Positions 50,272 through 62,665 of a stretch of DNA of 64,000 bases are shown here, piece after piece. The notes beneath the pieces were generated by a model, which saw only the letters and a list, made by a program, of their open reading frames with translations, was not told the origin of the DNA and did not search any database. The stretch lies in contig NZ_JAYEZN010000001.1 of assembly GCF_037031225.1 (NCBI RefSeq), forward strand, positions 2,356,001 to 2,420,000. Direction: 5' to 3'. The position numbers and the translations under genes were made by a program. The DNA comes from Halorientalis sp. LT38 (GTDB taxonomy: Archaea > Halobacteriota > Halobacteria > Halobacteriales > Haloarculaceae). Position 1 is the stretch's first letter. Each line of letters begins with the position of its first letter.

Positions 50272-51942
50272 ATGACCGAACACGGAACCGCACAGCCGTC
50301 GGACGAACTCAGACAGCACGCGGCCAGGCGCCGGCACCTGCAGGACCACCTCAAGAAGTTCAAGCAGATCACCGGCGAGTTCCCGATGTTCATCGACGAG
50401 GCCAGCGGCGAGTACGAGACCGACCGCCCGAACGTCCTCTACCCCGTCGGCGGCCCCATCTTCGTCCACATCTACGGCGACGTGGGCCAGGACATGAAGT
50501 ACTACGCCATCGAGCCGGAACTGGACGACACCGAGGCGGGCGTCTACCAGCGGGTCCGCGACAAACTCCTCCAGAAGTCGGTATCGAAACCCGCGCCCTC
50601 GAACGAGTCCGAGTACGACGACCAGATCGAACAGCTACTCCAGGAGAGCTGTCGGATCACGGACGACGAGGACACCGGCGTGATGAACAGGCTCTCCTCC
50701 GTGGTCGACCTGGGCAAGGTCAACGTCTCCAAGGAGACCTACGAGGACATCCGCTACATCCTCAACCGCGACATCGTCGGTCTGGGCCCCCTGGAACCGA
50801 TCATGCGGGACCCGGCCAACGAGGACATCCACGTCATCGGGCCCCACGAGTGTTACGTCGACCACGAGGTCTACGGCATGCTGGAGACCACGGTCGACTT
50901 CGGCGAACCCGAGGAGTTCGACCAGTGGCTCCGGAACATGGGCGAGCGGATCGGTGACCCCGTCTCCGACTCCGACCCGATCGTCGACTCCACCCTGCCC
51001 GACGGGTCCCGTCTCAACCTGATCTACTCCGACGACGTGAGCCTCAAGGGTCCCTCGCTGACGATCCGGCAGGGCCAGGAGATCCCCCTGTCGATGTTCC
51101 AGATCACCAAGTGGGGTACCCTCTCCCCGCGCCTGGCGGCGTATCTCTGGCTCTGTCTGGAGAACGAACAGACGGTGTTCGTCGTCGGGGAGACCGCGTC
51201 CGGGAAGACCACGACGCTGAACGCGGCCTTCGCCTTCATCCCCCGGGACGCGAAGATCTACACCGCGGAGGACACCGCCGAGGTCATCCCGCCACACGAT
51301 ACCTGGCAGCAACTGCTCACCCGCGAGGGCGAAGAGGAAGGAACCGGCGTCGACATGTTCGACCTGGTCGCCGCCGCGCTGCGTTCCCGACCCGACTACA
51401 TCATCCTCGGCGAGGTCCGTGGTGCCGAGGGTCGGATGGCGTTCCAGGCCGCCCAGACGGGCCACCCGGTCATGCTGACGTTCCACGCCTCCGACATCGT
51501 CTCGATGATCCAGCGGTTCACCAGCGACCCGATCAACGTCCCCGAGACGTTCATGGACGTCGCCGACGTCGCACTGTTCCAGAACCGCGTCAAGCAGGGT
51601 GACGAGGTCCTCCGTCGCGTGACCTCCGTCCAGGAGATCGAGGGCTACTCGAAGGAGATGGACGGTGTCGTCACCCGGCAGGCGTTCTACTGGGACCCCG
51701 TCGACGACGAGATCGTCTTCCAGGGGATGAACAACTCCTACGTCCTCGAAGAGCAGATCGCGACCCTGCTTGGCTACGAGGACACCCGCGAGATCTACAA
51801 CGACCTCGACTTCCGTGCCAGCATCATCGAGCGCGCCATCCAGGAGGACATCCTGGGCTACCACGAGGTCAACGAACTGATCGCCGACTATCAGCGCGAC
51901 GGCGTCGAGGGCCTCCCGTTCGACATCCACCGCGAGACCTGA
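50272..51942 (+). CDS. arlI: Archaellum assembly and rotation ATPase ArlI
   Basis: 556 aa, type II/IV secretion ATPase. Walker A is GETASGKTT (about 306-314), Asp box TAEDTAEV (about 332), Walker B region ILGEVRGAEG (about 380-389), His box TGHPVMLTFHA (about 398-408). The family-specific N domain (about 1-220) includes EPIMRDPANEDIHV. It powers both filament assembly and rotation with ArlJ. It starts 2 bp after arlH. Confidence 0.95.
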   Translation: MTEHGTAQPSDELRQHAARRRHLQDHLKKFKQITGEFPMFIDEASGEYETDRPNVLYPVGGPIFVHIYGDVGQDMKYYAIEPELDDTEAGVYQRVRDKLLQKSVSKPAPSNESEYDDQIEQLLQESCRITDDEDTGVMNRLSSVVDLGKVNVSKETYEDIRYILNRDIVGLGPLEPIMRDPANEDIHVIGPHECYVDHEVYGMLETTVDFGEPEEFDQWLRNMGERIGDPVSDSDPIVDSTLPDGSRLNLIYSDDVSLKGPSLTIRQGQEIPLSMFQITKWGTLSPRLAAYLWLCLENEQTVFVVGETASGKTTTLNAAFAFIPRDAKIYTAEDTAEVIPPHDTWQQLLTREGEEEGTGVDMFDLVAAALRSRPDYIILGEVRGAEGRMAFQAAQTGHPVMLTFHASDIVSMIQRFTSDPINVPETFMDVADVALFQNRVKQGDEVLRRVTSVQEIEGYSKEMDGVVTRQAFYWDPVDDEIVFQGMNNSYVLEEQIATLLGYEDTREIYNDLDFRASIIERAIQEDILGYHEVNELIADYQRDGVEGLPFDIHRET

Positions 51943-51944
51943 CG

Positions 51945-53699
51945 ATGGCCTCGAAAGAACCGACGAGTACCGCCCAGGAACTCAAACTCTCGCTCGCCAG
52001 TTTCGTCGACGACCTGCTCGAGTCCTACCAGCGGATGCCCTTCCCGATGCGCCGGTACGCCCTGGTCATCCTCCTGCCGGCGACCGGGTTCCTGCTGGTG
52101 ACCCTCGTCGGCGCCCTCCTGATCGACGCGCCGCTTTTCATCCGGGGCCCGATCCCCATGCTCGGCCTCCTGCTGTTCGGCGCCGCCCTCTTGTTCCCGA
52201 AGATCCAGCTCTCCCAGGAGAAGAAGGCCCTCAACAACCGCCTGCACCTGCTGATCACGCACATGACCGTGCTGTCGACGACCCGGATCGACCGCATGGA
52301 GGTGTTCCGCGCCCTGGCGGAAGAAGACGAGTACGGCGCGCTCGCCATGGAGATGCGGCGGGTCGTCCAGCTCGTCGACACCTGGAACCAGAGCCTCGAC
52401 GACGCGCTGCGTCGGCGCGCGAAACAGGTCCCCAGCGACGCCCTCTCCGACTTCTTCGACCGGCTCGCCTACACCCTGGGCGCCGGCCAGCCCCTCGAGG
52501 ACTTCCTCCTCTCGGAACAGGAGCAGGTGATGCAGAACTACGAGACCGTCTACACCGGCGCGCTGGAGAACCTGGAGGTCATGAAAGACCTCTACATGTC
52601 GATGATCCTCTCGATGACCTTCGCGCTGGTCTTTGCGGTCGTCCTCCCCATCCTGACCGGCACGAATCCGACGATGACCGTCAGCGCCGTCATCTTGCTT
52701 TTCATCTTCGTCCAGTCGGGCTTTTACCTCACCATCCGCACGATGGCGCCCCACGACCCGCTCTGGTACAACCCCGAGGAGATCACGACCGACCTGGACA
52801 CCAAGATGATCGCCGTCTTCGCCACCGGCGTCTCGCTGACGGTCGTCCTCGCCTTCCTCACCCTCGGCGGCCTGTTCGGTGCCAGTCCCCTCCCGATCGC
52901 GGCCCTGCTCCCGATGGACCCCGTCCCGCTGCCCATGTACGTGGCCATCCCCGCCACGCCCCTGCTGATCCCCGGGCTGTACGTCCGCCGCGTCGAGAAG
53001 GACATCGCCGCCCGCGACGACGAGTACCCATCCTTCATCCGCGCGCTCGGCGCCGCGGAGGGCGCCAAGCAGTCGACCACCTCCATGGTGCTCTCCTCGC
53101 TCCGGAAGAAGGACTTCGGGGCGCTCACCGGGAACATCGACGACCTCTACAAGCGACTGAACATGCGCATCGAGCCCACCTCGGCCTGGCGGTACTTCAC
53201 CGCCGACTGTCGCTCCTACCTGATCCAGAAGTTCTCCGAGATGTACCTGATCGGCCGGGAGATGGGTGGCTCGCCAAAGCAACTGGGTGAGCTCATCTCC
53301 GAGAACATGAACGTCGTCCTCCAGTTGCGCCAGCGCCGCTCGCAGGCCGCGACCACGCTGATCGGCCTGCTCTACGGTATTTCGGCGGCCGCGACCTTCG
53401 CCTTCTTCATCGGCCTGCAGGTCGTCAACATCCTCGCGAACATGAGCCTCGACCTGACCTCCTCCGCGCAGTTCAACGTCGGCTCGCTCATCAACACCGG
53501 CGTCTACAACATCCCCCTCATCGAGTTCCTGCTGATCGTCATCATCGTCTTCAACGCCCTCCTGTCCTCGCTGATGATCCGCGAGACCGACGGCGGCCAC
53601 AAGCTCAACGCCTACCTGCACTTCGTGGTCCTCACCTGGCTGGGCTCGCTCATCGCCATCTTCACGAAGCGGATGGTGAGCTCGTTCCTGACCATCTAA
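51945..53699 (+). CDS. arlJ: Archaellum membrane platform protein ArlJ
   Basis: 584 aa with two TadC-like helical domains (about 80-260 and 330-500) between hydrophobic helices: an N-terminal pair at about 30-80, more at about 230-270, 305-360, and a cluster near 465-580. It follows arlI by 2 bp. It anchors ArlI in the membrane and completes the motor. Confidence 0.94.
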   Translation: MASKEPTSTAQELKLSLASFVDDLLESYQRMPFPMRRYALVILLPATGFLLVTLVGALLIDAPLFIRGPIPMLGLLLFGAALLFPKIQLSQEKKALNNRLHLLITHMTVLSTTRIDRMEVFRALAEEDEYGALAMEMRRVVQLVDTWNQSLDDALRRRAKQVPSDALSDFFDRLAYTLGAGQPLEDFLLSEQEQVMQNYETVYTGALENLEVMKDLYMSMILSMTFALVFAVVLPILTGTNPTMTVSAVILLFIFVQSGFYLTIRTMAPHDPLWYNPEEITTDLDTKMIAVFATGVSLTVVLAFLTLGGLFGASPLPIAALLPMDPVPLPMYVAIPATPLLIPGLYVRRVEKDIAARDDEYPSFIRALGAAEGAKQSTTSMVLSSLRKKDFGALTGNIDDLYKRLNMRIEPTSAWRYFTADCRSYLIQKFSEMYLIGREMGGSPKQLGELISENMNVVLQLRQRRSQAATTLIGLLYGISAAATFAFFIGLQVVNILANMSLDLTSSAQFNVGSLINTGVYNIPLIEFLLIVIIVFNALLSSLMIRETDGGHKLNAYLHFVVLTWLGSLIAIFTKRMVSSFLTI

Positions 53700-56905: not shown

Positions 56906-56983
56906 CACGTCGGCGAGGTGACCGGGTAGCGACCCCCTATCCCCCGGTCCCGACGCCTCAGTACGTGAACGTGTCGCAAACAA

Positions 56984-57066
56984 CCCAAATGTTTATTGGG
57001 AACCCTCGGTAAGTAAGTGATACATACCGGAGTGGTATCCGGGTATGCTAAGGGGGGTTTAGCATA
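56984..57066 (+). promoter_or_regulatory. Leader of the T4SS-like cassette with three inverted repeats
   Basis: CCCAA-N7-TTGGG (56984-57000) enclosing a TATA-like gtttatt; ATACC-N5-GGTAT (57024-57038); and TATGCTAA-N7-TTAGCATA (57044-57066) whose loop is a six-G run and whose last base is the A of the ATG at 57066. The last could be an RNA hairpin hiding the ribosome site or a protein-binding operator. Three palindromes in 83 bp point to tight control. Confidence 0.6.
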
Positions 57067-57155
57067 TGGGGAAGAAAGCAACGCAACACATAGCACAGAC
57101 GTTAGTCAGTAGTACGGATCGACAATCGCACTCGGCCACCGTGGGGGGTGTCTGA
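57066..57155 (+). CDS. 29-aa basic peptide ORF
   Basis: MGKKATQHIAQTLVSSTDR then a Ser/His/Thr/Val/Gly-rich end. It is preceded by a six-G run that could be its ribosome site, and the TGA is 1 base before the ATG of the next gene (57157), so it looks like the first cistron of the operon. It could be a leader peptide or a real small protein. Chance is possible at this length. Confidence 0.5.
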   Translation: MGKKATQHIAQTLVSSTDRQSHSATVGGV

Positions 57156-57156
57156 G

Positions 57157-57702
57157 ATGTCACTCGAACAGGTTCGGACCCGGCTCGGTGAACCGGTGGC
57201 GAACCTCTGGATGCGCTTCGACCGCGAGCTGTTCGCGCTCTCGCCGCGAGCCAGCCGACTGCTCGCGGTACTCGTCATGGCGGCGTCGGCGCTGCTCGGC
57301 CTGCTGATGCTCAGGGCGGCGTCGGCGTTGTTCGTGATGCCGGCGGTCGCGCAAAGCGGAAGTGGTGCCTCTGACGTTTCGAGCGTCCTGTGTGGCCCGG
57401 ACACGCCACCGATTGGTGAGCTAATCGCCTTCGCCGTGGCTGCACTGTCAATTTTCCTCTTGGCCAAGGCCGTGATCCAGGGGACGGTCGCGTTCAACAA
57501 ACTCGGCTCCTCACGGGCACAGCAACAGTTCGAGGGGAAACAGGCACTTGCTGGCGCAGGCAAGACCGCTGCCGGTGCAATCGTACCGCCAGTGTTCGTC
57601 GCGATCCTGAACAGCGTGCTGGGGCTCCAACTCCAGAACTGCATCTTCGCAGGCCTTCAGGACGGAAACATCTTCGCAGTGGTCGCGACCCTGCCGTTCT
57701 GA
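57157..57702 (+). CDS. Small membrane protein of the T4SS-like cassette
   Basis: 181 aa starting MSLEQVRTRLGEPVANLW. Hydrophobic segments at about 35-58, 88-106 and 132-152. Two cysteines (about 79 and 158) flank the middle segment and could form a disulfide. A basic cytoplasmic loop (SSRAQQQFEGKQALAGAGK) lies between helix 2 and 3. It has no cleavable signal. By position it may be a VirB2/pilin-like or VirB8-like partner, but the sequence does not prove it. It is followed by 139 bp of non-coding DNA. Confidence 0.65.
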   Translation: MSLEQVRTRLGEPVANLWMRFDRELFALSPRASRLLAVLVMAASALLGLLMLRAASALFVMPAVAQSGSGASDVSSVLCGPDTPPIGELIAFAVAALSIFLLAKAVIQGTVAFNKLGSSRAQQQFEGKQALAGAGKTAAGAIVPPVFVAILNSVLGLQLQNCIFAGLQDGNIFAVVATLPF

Positions 57703-57841
57703 GGACGGCAGCAGCGTGATCACCGCCCCGATCGGGGACCTGCGACGCTCCCCGACGAGCCGGCGTCTTGCGTCCGGGGGATCCGCCTCCGACTGTCGAA
57801 CAGACACATCACCGATCGCGAAATCAGGAGCGTAGTTTCAC

Positions 57842-59221
57842 ATGCAATATCACAACCTGTTGCTGGTGCTGGTGCTGGCCACGGCGTTCGCAGCCCCTGC
57901 GTCAGCGACGACCAGTTCCCACGCGGGAGCTCCCGTCACCGCTGACGCGGGAACGGCGGTCGTCGGTAGCGCCGATTTCGCGATCCAGGACACCAACGAG
58001 ACCCAGAACGAGACCCAGAACGAAACCGACGGTGAGGAGTTCGATGAAGAGGACGCCGAAGTTATCCGGGATTTCTTCGGGTTCGGCGGAGACAGCGAAG
58101 ACGGCGGAGACGGCGGCTTCTTCACGGGCCTCGCGGCGAACGCCATCGAGCAGGCGATGATCGGCTTCCTGAACGGCATCGCCGAGGACTCGGAAGAAGT
58201 AGCGAGAGAATTCGACGAAAGCGGGGTCGTTTTCGACTTCCCGGCCCCGGGCGACCCCGGCGACCCGCCGTCGTGGGTGAACCCGGACGCGTGGAGCGGC
58301 ACGACCGAGGGCGAGCGGTGGCAAGGCACCTTCACGTACCACTGGGTGTTCGGCTTCCTCGGGTTCGCCGGCCTCCTGCCGGCGTTGATGCTTGCGATGG
58401 GCAAAGGCAATCGCAAACCCGACAGAGGGACGGCCAAACGGTTCGTCCGCGGGTTCGTGATGATCCTCCTCGGCTGGATTGTCATCGCGCTGTGTTACCA
58501 CCTGGCGGACGCGGTCACGCAGATCGTCGCGCCACCGGCGGGAACGGAACAAGGTGTTCGCGGATACGTTGACGTGTTGCAGGCGGCGAACCTAGAGGGC
58601 CACCTCGGTGCGGTCATCGGCGGCGCGAAGGGGATGTTACTGACCACGGCGCTGGGCGTGCTGTACATTCAGTACGTCCTCGCGTTCGTCTGCGCAGCGA
58701 TCTGGCCGGTGATGTGGGTGCTGATGGCCTACCGATCGACGATCGCCCGCTCGGCCGGGAAGATCGCGCTGACCTTCATGGGCGCGCTGATCGTCATCAA
58801 GCTCTTGCAGGCGACGATCTTCCACTTCCTCGTCGCCTTCGAGTTCGAATCACCGGTGGTGAGAGAGACCGCGTACACTGTCGGGATTACCCTCGCCTTC
58901 ATGCTGTTACCGTACACGGTCCTGGCGAAGATGATGCCGCGGACGCTGCTCATCTTCGGGCTGCACGAACTGCGCGAGAAGGGCCACGAGGACCGGCGCT
59001 ACCAGCAGCGGATAGGCAACGTCCGCCGGAAGTTCAACCAGTCGCTCCGACGCGGTCCGGACGGGGGAGTGGATCAGGTCGGGCCGGCGAACCGGGGCTC
59101 GAAAGGACTGCCGAGCGGACAGCCGCGGGAGCTGAACTCCGCGCGCTCGGACGGCGGGCGGGGCCTCCCGCGCGGGCAGCCGGCCGAGGGACCTGACGGC
59201 GACGGACCGAACACGAGGTGA
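57842..59221 (+). CDS. VirB6/TrbL-like polytopic membrane protein
   Basis: 459 aa. A signal peptide (about 1-22, ending in ASA) precedes an extracellular acidic region with a NETQNETQNET glycosylation run and a FFGFGGDSED amphipathic block. Then come about six hydrophobic helices (about 165-186, 203-222, 259-284, 287-300, 310-333 and 345-372), the last linked to a basic cytoplasmic region (MMPRTLLIFGLHELREKGHEDRR) and an unstructured Gly/Arg-rich tail. This order is that of VirB6/TrbL. The next gene starts 7 bp after its stop. Confidence 0.7.
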   Translation: MQYHNLLLVLVLATAFAAPASATTSSHAGAPVTADAGTAVVGSADFAIQDTNETQNETQNETDGEEFDEEDAEVIRDFFGFGGDSEDGGDGGFFTGLAANAIEQAMIGFLNGIAEDSEEVAREFDESGVVFDFPAPGDPGDPPSWVNPDAWSGTTEGERWQGTFTYHWVFGFLGFAGLLPALMLAMGKGNRKPDRGTAKRFVRGFVMILLGWIVIALCYHLADAVTQIVAPPAGTEQGVRGYVDVLQAANLEGHLGAVIGGAKGMLLTTALGVLYIQYVLAFVCAAIWPVMWVLMAYRSTIARSAGKIALTFMGALIVIKLLQATIFHFLVAFEFESPVVRETAYTVGITLAFMLLPYTVLAKMMPRTLLIFGLHELREKGHEDRRYQQRIGNVRRKFNQSLRRGPDGGVDQVGPANRGSKGLPSGQPRELNSARSDGGRGLPRGQPAEGPDGDGPNTR

Positions 59222-59227
59222 GCACGG

Positions 59228-62200
59228 ATGTCGAACGACCTACCACGGACGACCGACGACAGACGCGAACAGCGCCGGACGCGGGATCCCAGTCAGCTGA
59301 TCCCGCCGTACATCGACACCTCGATCGAGGTGCTCGGACCACTGACGACGTCGGACCTGCTGCTCTACGTGCCGGCCGGCCTGGTGGCGCTCGTGGCCCT
59401 GTTCGCGCTGATGGGGGGTTCCTTCGGTGTGTTCTTCCCGGCGCTACTGGCGGCGGGCGTCCTCGTGTTCGTCGCGACGGCGGCCAAGATCACGACCGAC
59501 TGGTACGCCTCGCCCCGGGGCCGGATCAAGGGATGGTTCGCGTACCTGTGGCGGTCGCGGACGCTCCCCTGGGACCACGAGGAGGCCGTCGGCCGGTCGA
59601 TTCCGGGCGTCCGCGGGTTCCAGCCGGAGGGGACCGCCAAGATGGACGACGGACGCTACGTCGGCGTGGTCCGCGTGGATCCCACCAACGCCGCGCTGGG
59701 CTCGGACCGGGATATCGACGGTCTGGCCGCCCAGCTGAGTACCGTGGTCGACGAGCAGATCAAGGACTTCGACTTCAAGCTGTTCGCGACGACCGGCGAC
59801 TTCGACGCCGACGAGATCGTCGGCCAGTACGAGCGCCGTGCCGCGGGCGCCGACGGCCTGGACGACGACTTCCAGGCGGCGATGTACAAGCGGGAACTGC
59901 TCGAGGACGTGGCCGACTGGTACCGCGAGACCGACGTCCCCCAGTGGGCGGCCAACGACTGGCGCTACTACGTCGTCGTGGAGGTCGCGCCGGGTGACGT
60001 CCAGTCGCCGGCCGACGTGAGCGTCTGGGACATCCTCAACCCGCTCGCGAGTGCGGACCCGGAGGCGGCCGACAAGCGCCAGTTCGCGACCCTTTTGGAC
60101 CGCCTCGCGACGGTCGAGGGCGCGATCGACGGGATCACCGGCCTCCAGGCGAGCCGGATCGGCGTGCGCGAGCACATCGAACTGTTGAGCGAGTACTGGA
60201 CCGGCGAGGACGCCGTCCCGAGCGAGAACCTGATCCGGGCCATCGAGGAGGAGGAACTCTCCGAGGCCCAGCAGGCGCGCATGGACGAACTGTTCGCGCC
60301 GGCGGAACTCGACGCCACCCGCGACCACGTCGAAGTGGGCGACGAGTTCTGCCGGACCTTCTGGATCGCCGAGTGGCCGGTCGAACCGCAGTCGCTGTTC
60401 CTCCGGGACCTGTTCACCCTCCGGGGTGTGGAGGTCGACGTCTGCTTCCACGTCGGCGCCGCCGACAAGCGGGCCAAGACCGCGGAACTGGAGCGGATCA
60501 TCGCCGACATCGAGTCCGAGGGCCACGAGCGCCGCGAACACTCGGACGTGTCGGCGGCCGACATCGATCGGGACGTGGACGCGTACCTGACCTACCGGGA
60601 ACTGCTGCGGACGACGCGGACCCAGCCGTGGGACCTCGCGGGCTACGTCACCGTCCGCGCCGACACGGAGGCGGCGCTCCGGCGCGCCGAGAGCGCCATC
60701 GAGGAGTTCGACCACGTCGAGTACGCGAAGCGGTCGGTGCTGGACGACGACGCCGAACTGGTCCGGAACACCCTCGAGTCCTCGCCGGCGGACTGTTACA
60801 CGGTCGTCCCGGCGAGCCGCCAGCTGGAGGCGTTCAAGTCCTGTGCGCCGACCGGCCACGACGAGTTCACCGAGACGTCGACGATCGAGAAGACCACGTC
60901 GGTGCCGGGCGGGGCCATCGGCGCGACCTTCCCGTTCTGCGCGACCGACGTGCGCGAACCGACGGGGATGGACTGGGGGCGCAACAAGCAGAACGGGGCG
61001 ATGCTCAAGGCCGACCCCTTCGAGCGCGAGAGCGCACCGCACCTCCTGACCATCGGGAAGTCACGCAGCGGGAAGACCTACGCCTCGACGAAGGCCGCCG
61101 CGCGCTGGTACCTCCAGAGCGACGACCACACGCTGATCCTCTGTGACACCCAGAGCGGCTTCGACGGCATCACGAAGCTGCTGGGCGGCGAGCACATCGT
61201 CGTCGACGGCACCCAGACGATCAACCCGCTGGACATCCAGCCCCTCCCCGACCACATCCGGGAGTCTTCGGGCGGTCGGGTCGACCCCTACCGCATGAAG
61301 ATCGAGGAGGCGACGCAGTTCTTCGCCGGCATCCTCCGCTCGCAGGGGATCGACCCCGGCAACTACGTCGCCACCATCGAGGAGGGCCTCGAGGGCACGT
61401 ACAACCGCGCGGGCATCTACCAGGACGACCTGGACAGTCACGCTCGCGAGAGCCCGACCATCGAGGACTTCATCGACACCCTCGGGGACATGCTGGAGAA
61501 CCCGAACACGTACACCCACACCGAACACGCCGCGGAGATCGAACAGAAGGTCGAGCGTGTCAGTGACCTGCTGGACAAGCTCTCCGGGTTCAAGGAGGGC
61601 GGGAAGTACCACCACCTGGAGACCGGCGCGGGGATCATGAACCCCGACGTGGACATGGCCTACCTCGACCTCCAGCAGCTCCGGGACGCAAGCGACGCCG
61701 AGAAGTCGATCATGCTCCAGCTCATGCTCGGGCAGGTGGCCCAGAAGGCCAAACGCACACGAGGGAAGCTCGTCTTCATGATCGACGAGGCCCACGTCCT
61801 CTTCCACTCCGAGGAGATGACCAGCTGGCTCCAGAAGGCCGCCCGGGAGTGGGCGCGCTACGACGCGGCGCTGTGGTTCATCAGCCAGTCGCCCCGGGAG
61901 TTCATCCAGCAGTCCGCCGACCGGGACGTGGGCCAGGAGAACGAGCGCCGCACCATCGTCGACCAGTGTTCGACGATCCAGTTCTTCCGGACGCCCCGGG
62001 TCGATCCCGACACGCTGGCCCAGTTCGGCCTCAATCGCCAGCAGATCGACTGGATCCGCGAGGAGGCGACGCCCGGGAAGGCCGGACACGGCTACTCGGA
62101 GTCGCTGACCTACTTCGAGGACTACGAGGGCTGGTTCCCGACCTACGTCGAGGCGTCGCCGTTCGAGGACCTGGTGTACAACTACACGCCGCGGGAACAC

Positions 62201-62665
62201 GGGGACTTCCGCGAGTACGTCCAGCGCCACTGGGGCGCGGTCGAGGACGGCATCATCGTCGACGGCGAGATCACGGTCGACCCGAGCGTCCCGCTGGTCG
62301 ACTCGAAACCCGCAGACGCCGAACCGGTCACGGACGGCAAGGGCCAGGACACCGACGCGGCGTTCACGCTCGAACCGCCGGAACCGGAACCCGTGGAGCC
62401 CGACGCCGGGCCGTCCGCCGACGCCGAGTCGACGGGTGACGCGGGCGCTGCGCGGTCCGGGTCGACCGCGGCGTCCGACGGCGACGCCCGGAACCCGGAC
62501 GGGGACGCGAGCATCGGGACCGAACCGGCGGCCGATCCGTTCGACCCCGGCCTGGACGAGAACCACACCGAACCGACCTCGGCGACCGATCTCGACGGGA
62601 CCCCGCACTGGCTCGACGAGGACGACGAGGACGAACCGTCGGCCGACGACGTGGACCTATTCTAG
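59228..62665 (+). CDS. PrgI/VirB3-VirB4-like fused conjugation-type ATPase
   Basis: 1,145 aa. The N-terminal part (about 18-140) has PPYIDTSIEVLGPLT, two hydrophobic helices (about 45-80) and a TDWY..PRGRIKGW segment, matching PrgI/VirB3-type membrane proteins. The middle (about 150-560) is the VirB4 N domain. The ATPase domain has Walker A GKSRSGKTYAS (about 612-622), Walker B FMIDEAHVLF (about 851-860) and a C-terminal QSPREFIQQ (about 884) sensor. The last 140 residues are an acidic low-complexity tail. It probably energises substrate or pilin export across the membrane. Confidence 0.83.
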   Translation: MSNDLPRTTDDRREQRRTRDPSQLIPPYIDTSIEVLGPLTTSDLLLYVPAGLVALVALFALMGGSFGVFFPALLAAGVLVFVATAAKITTDWYASPRGRIKGWFAYLWRSRTLPWDHEEAVGRSIPGVRGFQPEGTAKMDDGRYVGVVRVDPTNAALGSDRDIDGLAAQLSTVVDEQIKDFDFKLFATTGDFDADEIVGQYERRAAGADGLDDDFQAAMYKRELLEDVADWYRETDVPQWAANDWRYYVVVEVAPGDVQSPADVSVWDILNPLASADPEAADKRQFATLLDRLATVEGAIDGITGLQASRIGVREHIELLSEYWTGEDAVPSENLIRAIEEEELSEAQQARMDELFAPAELDATRDHVEVGDEFCRTFWIAEWPVEPQSLFLRDLFTLRGVEVDVCFHVGAADKRAKTAELERIIADIESEGHERREHSDVSAADIDRDVDAYLTYRELLRTTRTQPWDLAGYVTVRADTEAALRRAESAIEEFDHVEYAKRSVLDDDAELVRNTLESSPADCYTVVPASRQLEAFKSCAPTGHDEFTETSTIEKTTSVPGGAIGATFPFCATDVREPTGMDWGRNKQNGAMLKADPFERESAPHLLTIGKSRSGKTYASTKAAARWYLQSDDHTLILCDTQSGFDGITKLLGGEHIVVDGTQTINPLDIQPLPDHIRESSGGRVDPYRMKIEEATQFFAGILRSQGIDPGNYVATIEEGLEGTYNRAGIYQDDLDSHARESPTIEDFIDTLGDMLENPNTYTHTEHAAEIEQKVERVSDLLDKLSGFKEGGKYHHLETGAGIMNPDVDMAYLDLQQLRDASDAEKSIMLQLMLGQVAQKAKRTRGKLVFMIDEAHVLFHSEEMTSWLQKAAREWARYDAALWFISQSPREFIQQSADRDVGQENERRTIVDQCSTIQFFRTPRVDPDTLAQFGLNRQQIDWIREEATPGKAGHGYSESLTYFEDYEGWFPTYVEASPFEDLVYNYTPREHGDFREYVQRHWGAVEDGIIVDGEITVDPSVPLVDSKPADAEPVTDGKGQDTDAAFTLEPPEPEPVEPDAGPSADAESTGDAGAARSGSTAASDGDARNPDGDASIGTEPAADPFDPGLDENHTEPTSATDLDGTPHWLDEDDEDEPSADDVDLF

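Follow-up and report, generated by a model that had tools for sequence, protein, structure and literature searches.

A chromosomal VirB2-VirB6-VirB4 cassette without VirD4 at a fixed site in Halorientalis, probably a domesticated conjugation apparatus

Can a type IV secretion system (T4SS) that lacks a coupling protein at its own locus be a working part of a haloarchaeal chromosome, and what would it be kept for? The question is raised by three consecutive, same-strand open reading frames (ORFs) within positions 57148-62665 (+) of a 64,000-nucleotide stretch, hereafter the window, of the main chromosome of Halorientalis sp. LT38 (G000:C1:2356001-2420000). An earlier, sequence-only reading of this DNA had described three membrane-associated genes in a row resembling a T4SS, and both the coordinates and the component identities bear this out:

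57148-57702, + strand: T4SS pilin (VirB2-like), 184 amino acids (aa), GTG start; leader to approximately Ala68-Gln69, two hydrophobic helices
57842-59221, + strand: VirB6-like polytopic membrane protein, 459 aa; signal peptide, acidic N-terminal outer part, approximately six transmembrane (TM) helices
59228-62665, + strand: VirB4-type ATPase, 1145 aa; two TM helices at the N-terminus, resembling VirB3 in position only

Sequence comparisons give good support for a cassette of VirB2, VirB6, and VirB4 components, the minimal core of a T4SS, and conservation of the trio in five species means that it is not a chance find. On balance, we favor a domesticated conjugation apparatus for DNA exchange, which would resemble the archaeal Ced and Ted systems in its working.

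The ATPase is the most readily identified component. ORF3 matches the NCBIfam models VirB4_plasma (6e-34), CD1110 (5.7e-25), and TraC-F (4e-14), and its family profile retrieves the solved VirB4 structure 4ag5 (E 2.2e-21), confirming the large VirB4-type ATPase proposed beforehand. Its Walker motifs are intact, and the NCBIfam CedD model yields a weak match (E 0.0092). The protein had further been taken for a VirB3-VirB4 fusion with a PrgI/VirB3-like membrane part. Of this, the two N-terminal TM helices stand, occupying the position of the TM helices in fused VirB3 proteins, whereas the VirB3/PrgI label lacks profile support, no VirB3 or PrgI model matching the ATPase at E values up to 1. The window's VirB6-like protein by itself matches no Pfam family and is identified via its relatives: a profile built from 20 of them aligns with a TrbL_3/VirB6-containing family in profile-profile comparison (probability 99.3, E 1.3e-20), one member of which matches Pfam TrbL_3 at 2e-16. 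Its AlphaFold model is of low confidence (predicted local distance difference test (pLDDT) 48, shallow alignment); with this model, Foldseek ranked TrwI/VirB6 of R388 first (E 9.5e-3, probability 0.97), and VIA-align gave the same protein Z scores of 10.4-10.6 compared with 7.7 for the next entry. Middling Z scores are commonplace for helical models, and the structural match to R388 VirB6 may thus be read as support rather than proof. Profile match and top-ranked structure together agree with the signal-peptide-bearing, polytopic VirB6/TrbL-like protein recognized earlier.

The first gene had been noted as a small membrane protein, correctly as to its presence, while its identity as a T4SS pilin was missed. 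The window pilin itself has no match to PF18895 (T4SS_pilin) or any other Pfam family, and here, too, the identity comes from relatives and their shared architecture. PF18895 is matched by 10 of 25 pilin-family relatives, below the Pfam cut-off for single members where shown, and the family profile can be aligned to the corresponding pilin family of a sister T4SS (E 1.2e-6, probability 91), in which three of four members match PF18895 as well (best 2.1e-6). Common to the members are a leader that terminates in A-Q in more than 90% of cases, a pair of hydrophobic helices, and a cysteine near each end of the mature protein, both of them invariant; the corresponding Cys82 and Cys165 of the window protein may form a disulfide. 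Sequence-profile searches of the PDB returned nothing useful for either the pilin or the VirB6 family. With the small protein being a pilin, the cassette has all of the VirB2, VirB6, and VirB4 components that make up the set in Ced and Ted.

The trio occupies one chromosomal site, the interval between the genes for Usp2 and a GNAT protein, in the window genome, H. regularis (G002), H. persicus (G005), a further Halorientalis genome (G003), and H. pallida. In two congeners (G001 and G006) and in several other genera the GNAT gene directly follows Usp2 and the trio is absent from the site; it is likewise absent there in a third congener, G004, where the two genes lie 1.1 kb apart. In a tree of the flanking genes all trio carriers form one clade, which also contains the draft genome G007. 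Synonymous divergence (dS) of the ATPase gene between species pairs (0.25-0.52) is comparable to that of the core genes on either side, and its ratio of non-synonymous to synonymous divergence (dN/dS) is 0.08-0.16. The ATPase has therefore been inherited vertically under purifying selection and shows neither decay nor recent transfer; vertical maintenance of the trio is well supported. One might suspect the remains of an integrated conjugative element in decay, given that just three genes are left and that the ATPase is truncated in a related locus of genome G296. This is contradicted by the selection acting on the trio: none of the three frames is broken in any of the five species, dN/dS is 0.08-0.41, the Walker motifs are preserved, and the element upstream of the pilin gene (see below) is unchanged. 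We regard decay as very improbable.

The pilin and VirB6 genes evolve differently from the motor. Their dN/dS is 0.22-0.41, and in close species pairs their dS exceeds that of the surroundings two- to threefold, for example 0.71 and 0.64 between H. regularis and H. persicus compared with 0.17-0.27. In more distant pairs, nucleotide identity is 53-75% across much of 57150-58700 and recovers at the ATPase, and the relationships between pairs shift along the pilin-VirB6 region. This pattern suggests that divergent alleles of the surface-exposed parts have been exchanged, with 57150-58900 a likely hotspot of allele exchange. Diversification of a surface-exposed pilin and VirB6 over a constant motor would be expected for adhesion or for escape from viruses, and it lends something to the view that the trio builds a conjugative-type pilus or secretion channel for adhesion, biofilm formation, or protein delivery and moves no DNA, as does the lack at the locus of VirD4, the usual substrate receptor. 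The same diversification is, however, equally compatible with mating specificity, no effector-like gene adjoins the trio, and the known archaeal VirB2/VirB6/VirB4 sets without VirD4 do move DNA (PMC9905601, PMC11868833), leaving such a role unlikely.

None of the ten nearest neighbors of the trio is an integrase or replication gene, and no att repeats were found among them. There is no tRNA near the trio, and integration next to a tRNA was rejected because the only tRNAs of the window, at 1.4 and 7.4 kb, are far away. A T2SSE/T2SSF pair upstream (50272-53699) corresponds to the ATPase and membrane protein of the archaellum, and its H. regularis counterpart follows FlaC/FlaDE and flagellin-like genes. 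It was dropped as a partner of the trio, since it belongs to the archaellum cluster and is present also in species without the trio.

The earlier account had further stated that the window contains no VirD4, relaxase, integrase, or replication gene. As to VirD4, this is borne out: none is present at the Halorientalis locus, there is no PF12696 match inside the window, and the nearest VirD4-like gene of the genome lies more than 400 kb from the trio. The relaxase family PF03432 has no match in 13 genomes including the entire window genome, in searches that did not extend to other relaxase families; recognizable relaxases are also lacking in archaeal conjugative plasmids (PMC12857230). For integrase and replication genes, the statement holds for the ten neighbors described above. 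Absence of VirD4, a site common to five species, and purifying selection thus identify a reduced, T4SS-like chromosomal machine rather than an ordinary conjugative element, as had been proposed.

Of 392 genomes searched across the order, 31 contain a relative of the ATPase at E below 1e-85. At least 15 loci encode a VirD4-like protein of approximately 1300 aa, whole or split, immediately after VirB4, recognized by TraD/VirD4 and TrwB_AAD_bind matches of the downstream proteins, and pilin and VirB6 genes usually precede VirB4. The majority lie on secondary contigs or contigs the size of plasmids, and two come from IMG/VR. Examples include the 41.8-kb plasmid NZ_CP109786 of Halocatena marina and plasmids of Actinarchaeum halophilum and of Haloterrigena sp. 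KLK7. These plasmid systems share with Halorientalis the pilin-VirB6-VirB4 order and homologous proteins (ATPases 32-41% identical), and differ in the VirD4-like protein directly downstream, which the Halorientalis locus lacks. A trio always found beside coupling protein and relaxase would have spoken for an ordinary conjugative element; such a pairing is, as regards VirD4, the rule for most plasmid relatives, but not for the chromosomal loci of Halorientalis and Halocatena. In Halocatena, a related trio without adjacent VirD4 is present in all six genomes, with the same chromosomal surroundings in five. It is homologous to that of Halorientalis and likewise resides at a conserved chromosomal site, yet this site is another one, its VirB4 belongs to another clade, and a beta-helix gene and a gene for a protein with two TM helices lie divergent from it. 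The beta-helix gene was dropped as a component because it belongs to a multicopy family and was not found in Halorientalis. On Halalkalicoccus-group contigs, too, the trio is without VirD4 in the stretches read.

In a quick VirB4 tree with SH-aLRT (Shimodaira-Hasegawa-like approximate likelihood ratio test) support, which has some long branches, the loci of Halorientalis and Halocatena fall into different clades. VirD4-bearing plasmids are located beside Halocatena, and G208, which branches closest to the Halorientalis clade, retains a classical VirD4 gene upstream. As the clades are separate and each has neighbors with VirD4, the coupling protein probably disappeared from the locus on two or more occasions. 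Family f9 may be a third case of domestication; all four of its genomes contain another T4SS subtype (PF18895 pilin, VirB6, VirB4), located near ileS where read (L046, L047, L160); searches for a separate VirD4 in three of the genomes returned nothing except VirB4 itself and a sub-threshold match in G041.

The G090 locus (L151:2467-12140) encodes a VirB4 of 1570 aa and a VirD4 of 1496 aa, far longer than their relatives, inteins being one possibility. The window genome has a second T4SS (L078:13483-19463), in which VirB4 is split over two genes; next comes a lipoprotein-like metallo-beta-lactamase that has a lamin-tail domain. Many haloarchaeal VirB4 homologs in plasmid records are labeled 'transferase' and others 'transfer complex protein', the former looking like a naming error.

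VirD4-like genes elsewhere in the chromosome raise a further explanation, namely that the trio is a resident apparatus that mobilizes plasmids or integrated elements in trans via a VirD4 encoded at a distance and serves these elements rather than the host. The window genome contains an orphan, split VirD4-like pair at C1:1978652-1981693 (L113:8657-11694, corresponding to C1:1978656-1981693), which is chromosomal and has no VirB4 match nearby, and a second VirD4-like protein of 1327 aa at C1:1159667. Halocatena genomes, too, have distant PF12696 proteins; in Halocatena G348 no member of the downstream VirD4 family was found genome-wide, yet other PF12696 proteins are encoded far away. The orphan pair is conserved in H. 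regularis (L114:8140-11450), adjoined by a spermine-synthase-like membrane protein, but was not found in the trio-bearing G003 or G005, and other VirD4-like genes accompany other T4SSs in the cases read. Since long vertical retention moreover suggests a benefit to the host, we consider mobilization in trans improbable.

The nearest known precedents for a domesticated apparatus are the Ced and Ted systems, described as domesticated T4SS derivatives built from VirB4, VirB6, and VirB2 homologs without an apparent archaeal relaxase, whose authors were aware of no other conjugation apparatus domesticated for DNA transfer (PMC9905601). Ted of Thermoproteales (TedA/TedB/TedC; PMC9905601) resembles the Halorientalis trio in having a chromosomal VirB6, a single VirB4, and a leader-bearing VirB2-like pilin, in lacking VirD4 and relaxase, and in being read as a domesticated T4SS. 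Points of difference from Ted are the two N-terminal TM helices of the Halorientalis ATPase, the adjacency of the three genes, the lack of a ParA, Rad50, or HerA gene among the neighbors read, and a probable origin from local haloarchaeal plasmid systems. Ced of Sulfolobales (CedA, CedA1, CedA2, CedB, CedD; PMC11868833) likewise combines chromosomal VirB6, VirB2, and VirB4 equivalents without relaxase or VirD4, but differs in its split VirB4-like ATPases (CedB, CedD), in the presence of CedA2, and in a pilin that is not processed. Its components import chromosomal DNA, and some are active in export too (PMC11868833); this role in DNA exchange is the one that, by analogy, we propose for the Halorientalis trio. 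Haloarchaeal mobile elements that carry both VirB4 and VirD4 have been described (PMC9259645), and in 2010 a 53-kb element of Haloferax volcanii was credited with a possible DNA secretion system (PMC2841640). The latter similarly places T4SS genes with a proposed DNA-transfer role in a haloarchaeal chromosome (PMC2841640), yet the element is of low GC content and includes XerC/D recombinases and VirD4, whereas the Halorientalis locus consists of three genes of host-like GC content with none of these adjoining. A haloarchaeal counterpart of Ced or Ted was not found in the openly licensed papers searched.

A trio that selection keeps at a fixed site without the plasmid's own transfer genes has probably been taken over by the host. 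The following course of events is envisaged: the T4SS block of a plasmid or integrative element would have integrated between the Usp and GNAT genes of an ancestral Halorientalis chromosome, lost VirD4 and all mobility genes, and from then on been passed down vertically under selection for its retention. If Ced and Ted are a guide, a signal peptidase would free the pilin, a conjugative-type pilus would be built on the VirB6 channel, and the VirB4 ATPase would power the handling of pilin, the movement of DNA, or both. Contact between cells would then allow chromosomal DNA to pass, probably for recombination or repair, with no need for a locus-encoded coupling protein or relaxase. Pilus formation, DNA as the cargo, and the direction of transport are inferred.

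Several points weigh against a domesticated DNA-exchange apparatus. DNA as its cargo is suggested by family resemblance, and the likeness to Ced and Ted consists in gene set and chromosomal residence, so that membership proper is not claimed. VirD4-like proteins are encoded elsewhere in the window genome and may act in trans, and the trio might therefore still depend on a coupling protein. The AlphaFold model of the pilin is poor (pLDDT 52, shallow alignment), and a fold search with this low-confidence model gave no structural match. Finally, no trio was detected in G007, a draft genome inside the carrier clade, perhaps owing to an assembly gap: its contig (L097:1-605) ends just past Usp2, where a hairpin resembles an end of the IS200/IS605 insertion sequence type, and with the contig broken off at the site, G007 cannot be scored for the trio. 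The distribution fits one gain in the clade ancestor with a loss or an assembly gap in G007.

The trio is probably under an upstream control element of its own. Approximately 55 bp within 57027-57092, upstream of the pilin gene, are almost invariant in the five species amid poorly alignable sequence, and the following features were noted:

56982-57000, + strand: candidate promoter sequence resembling a B recognition element (BRE) and TATA box, CCCAAATGTTTATTGGG, read by eye; its ACGTTTA/ATGTTTA part is conserved in the five-species alignment
57027-57042, no strand assigned: inverted repeat 1 (CCGGA...TCCGG), arms kept in all five species
57044-57066, no strand assigned: palindrome TATGCTAAGGGGGGTTTAGCATA, unchanged in all five species; the conserved block continues to approximately 57092

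Judging from the position of the BRE/TATA-like sequence, transcription would begin shortly before the repeats. The palindrome pattern has a single copy in each of the four trio-bearing Halorientalis genomes searched, has zero copies in four congeners without a detected trio, and was not found in the viral contigs searched; an Rfam scan of the leader gave no match. Operator, RNA leader hairpin, and DNA-processing site are candidate roles for the palindrome.

What might such a system mean for haloarchaea? Tentatively, they may repeatedly (in Halorientalis, in Halocatena, and perhaps in the f9 system near ileS) have fixed plasmid conjugation machines as chromosomal DNA-exchange systems that work with no coupling protein encoded at the locus. 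Such systems would be the euryarchaeal counterpart of Ced and Ted, with a pilin and channel that have diversified and a motor that has stayed constant. Sister plasmid systems that still have VirD4 would offer a before-and-after comparison of domestication. The haloarchaeal class includes genetically tractable model genera, and T4SS function without VirD4 and relaxase at its locus would become directly testable.

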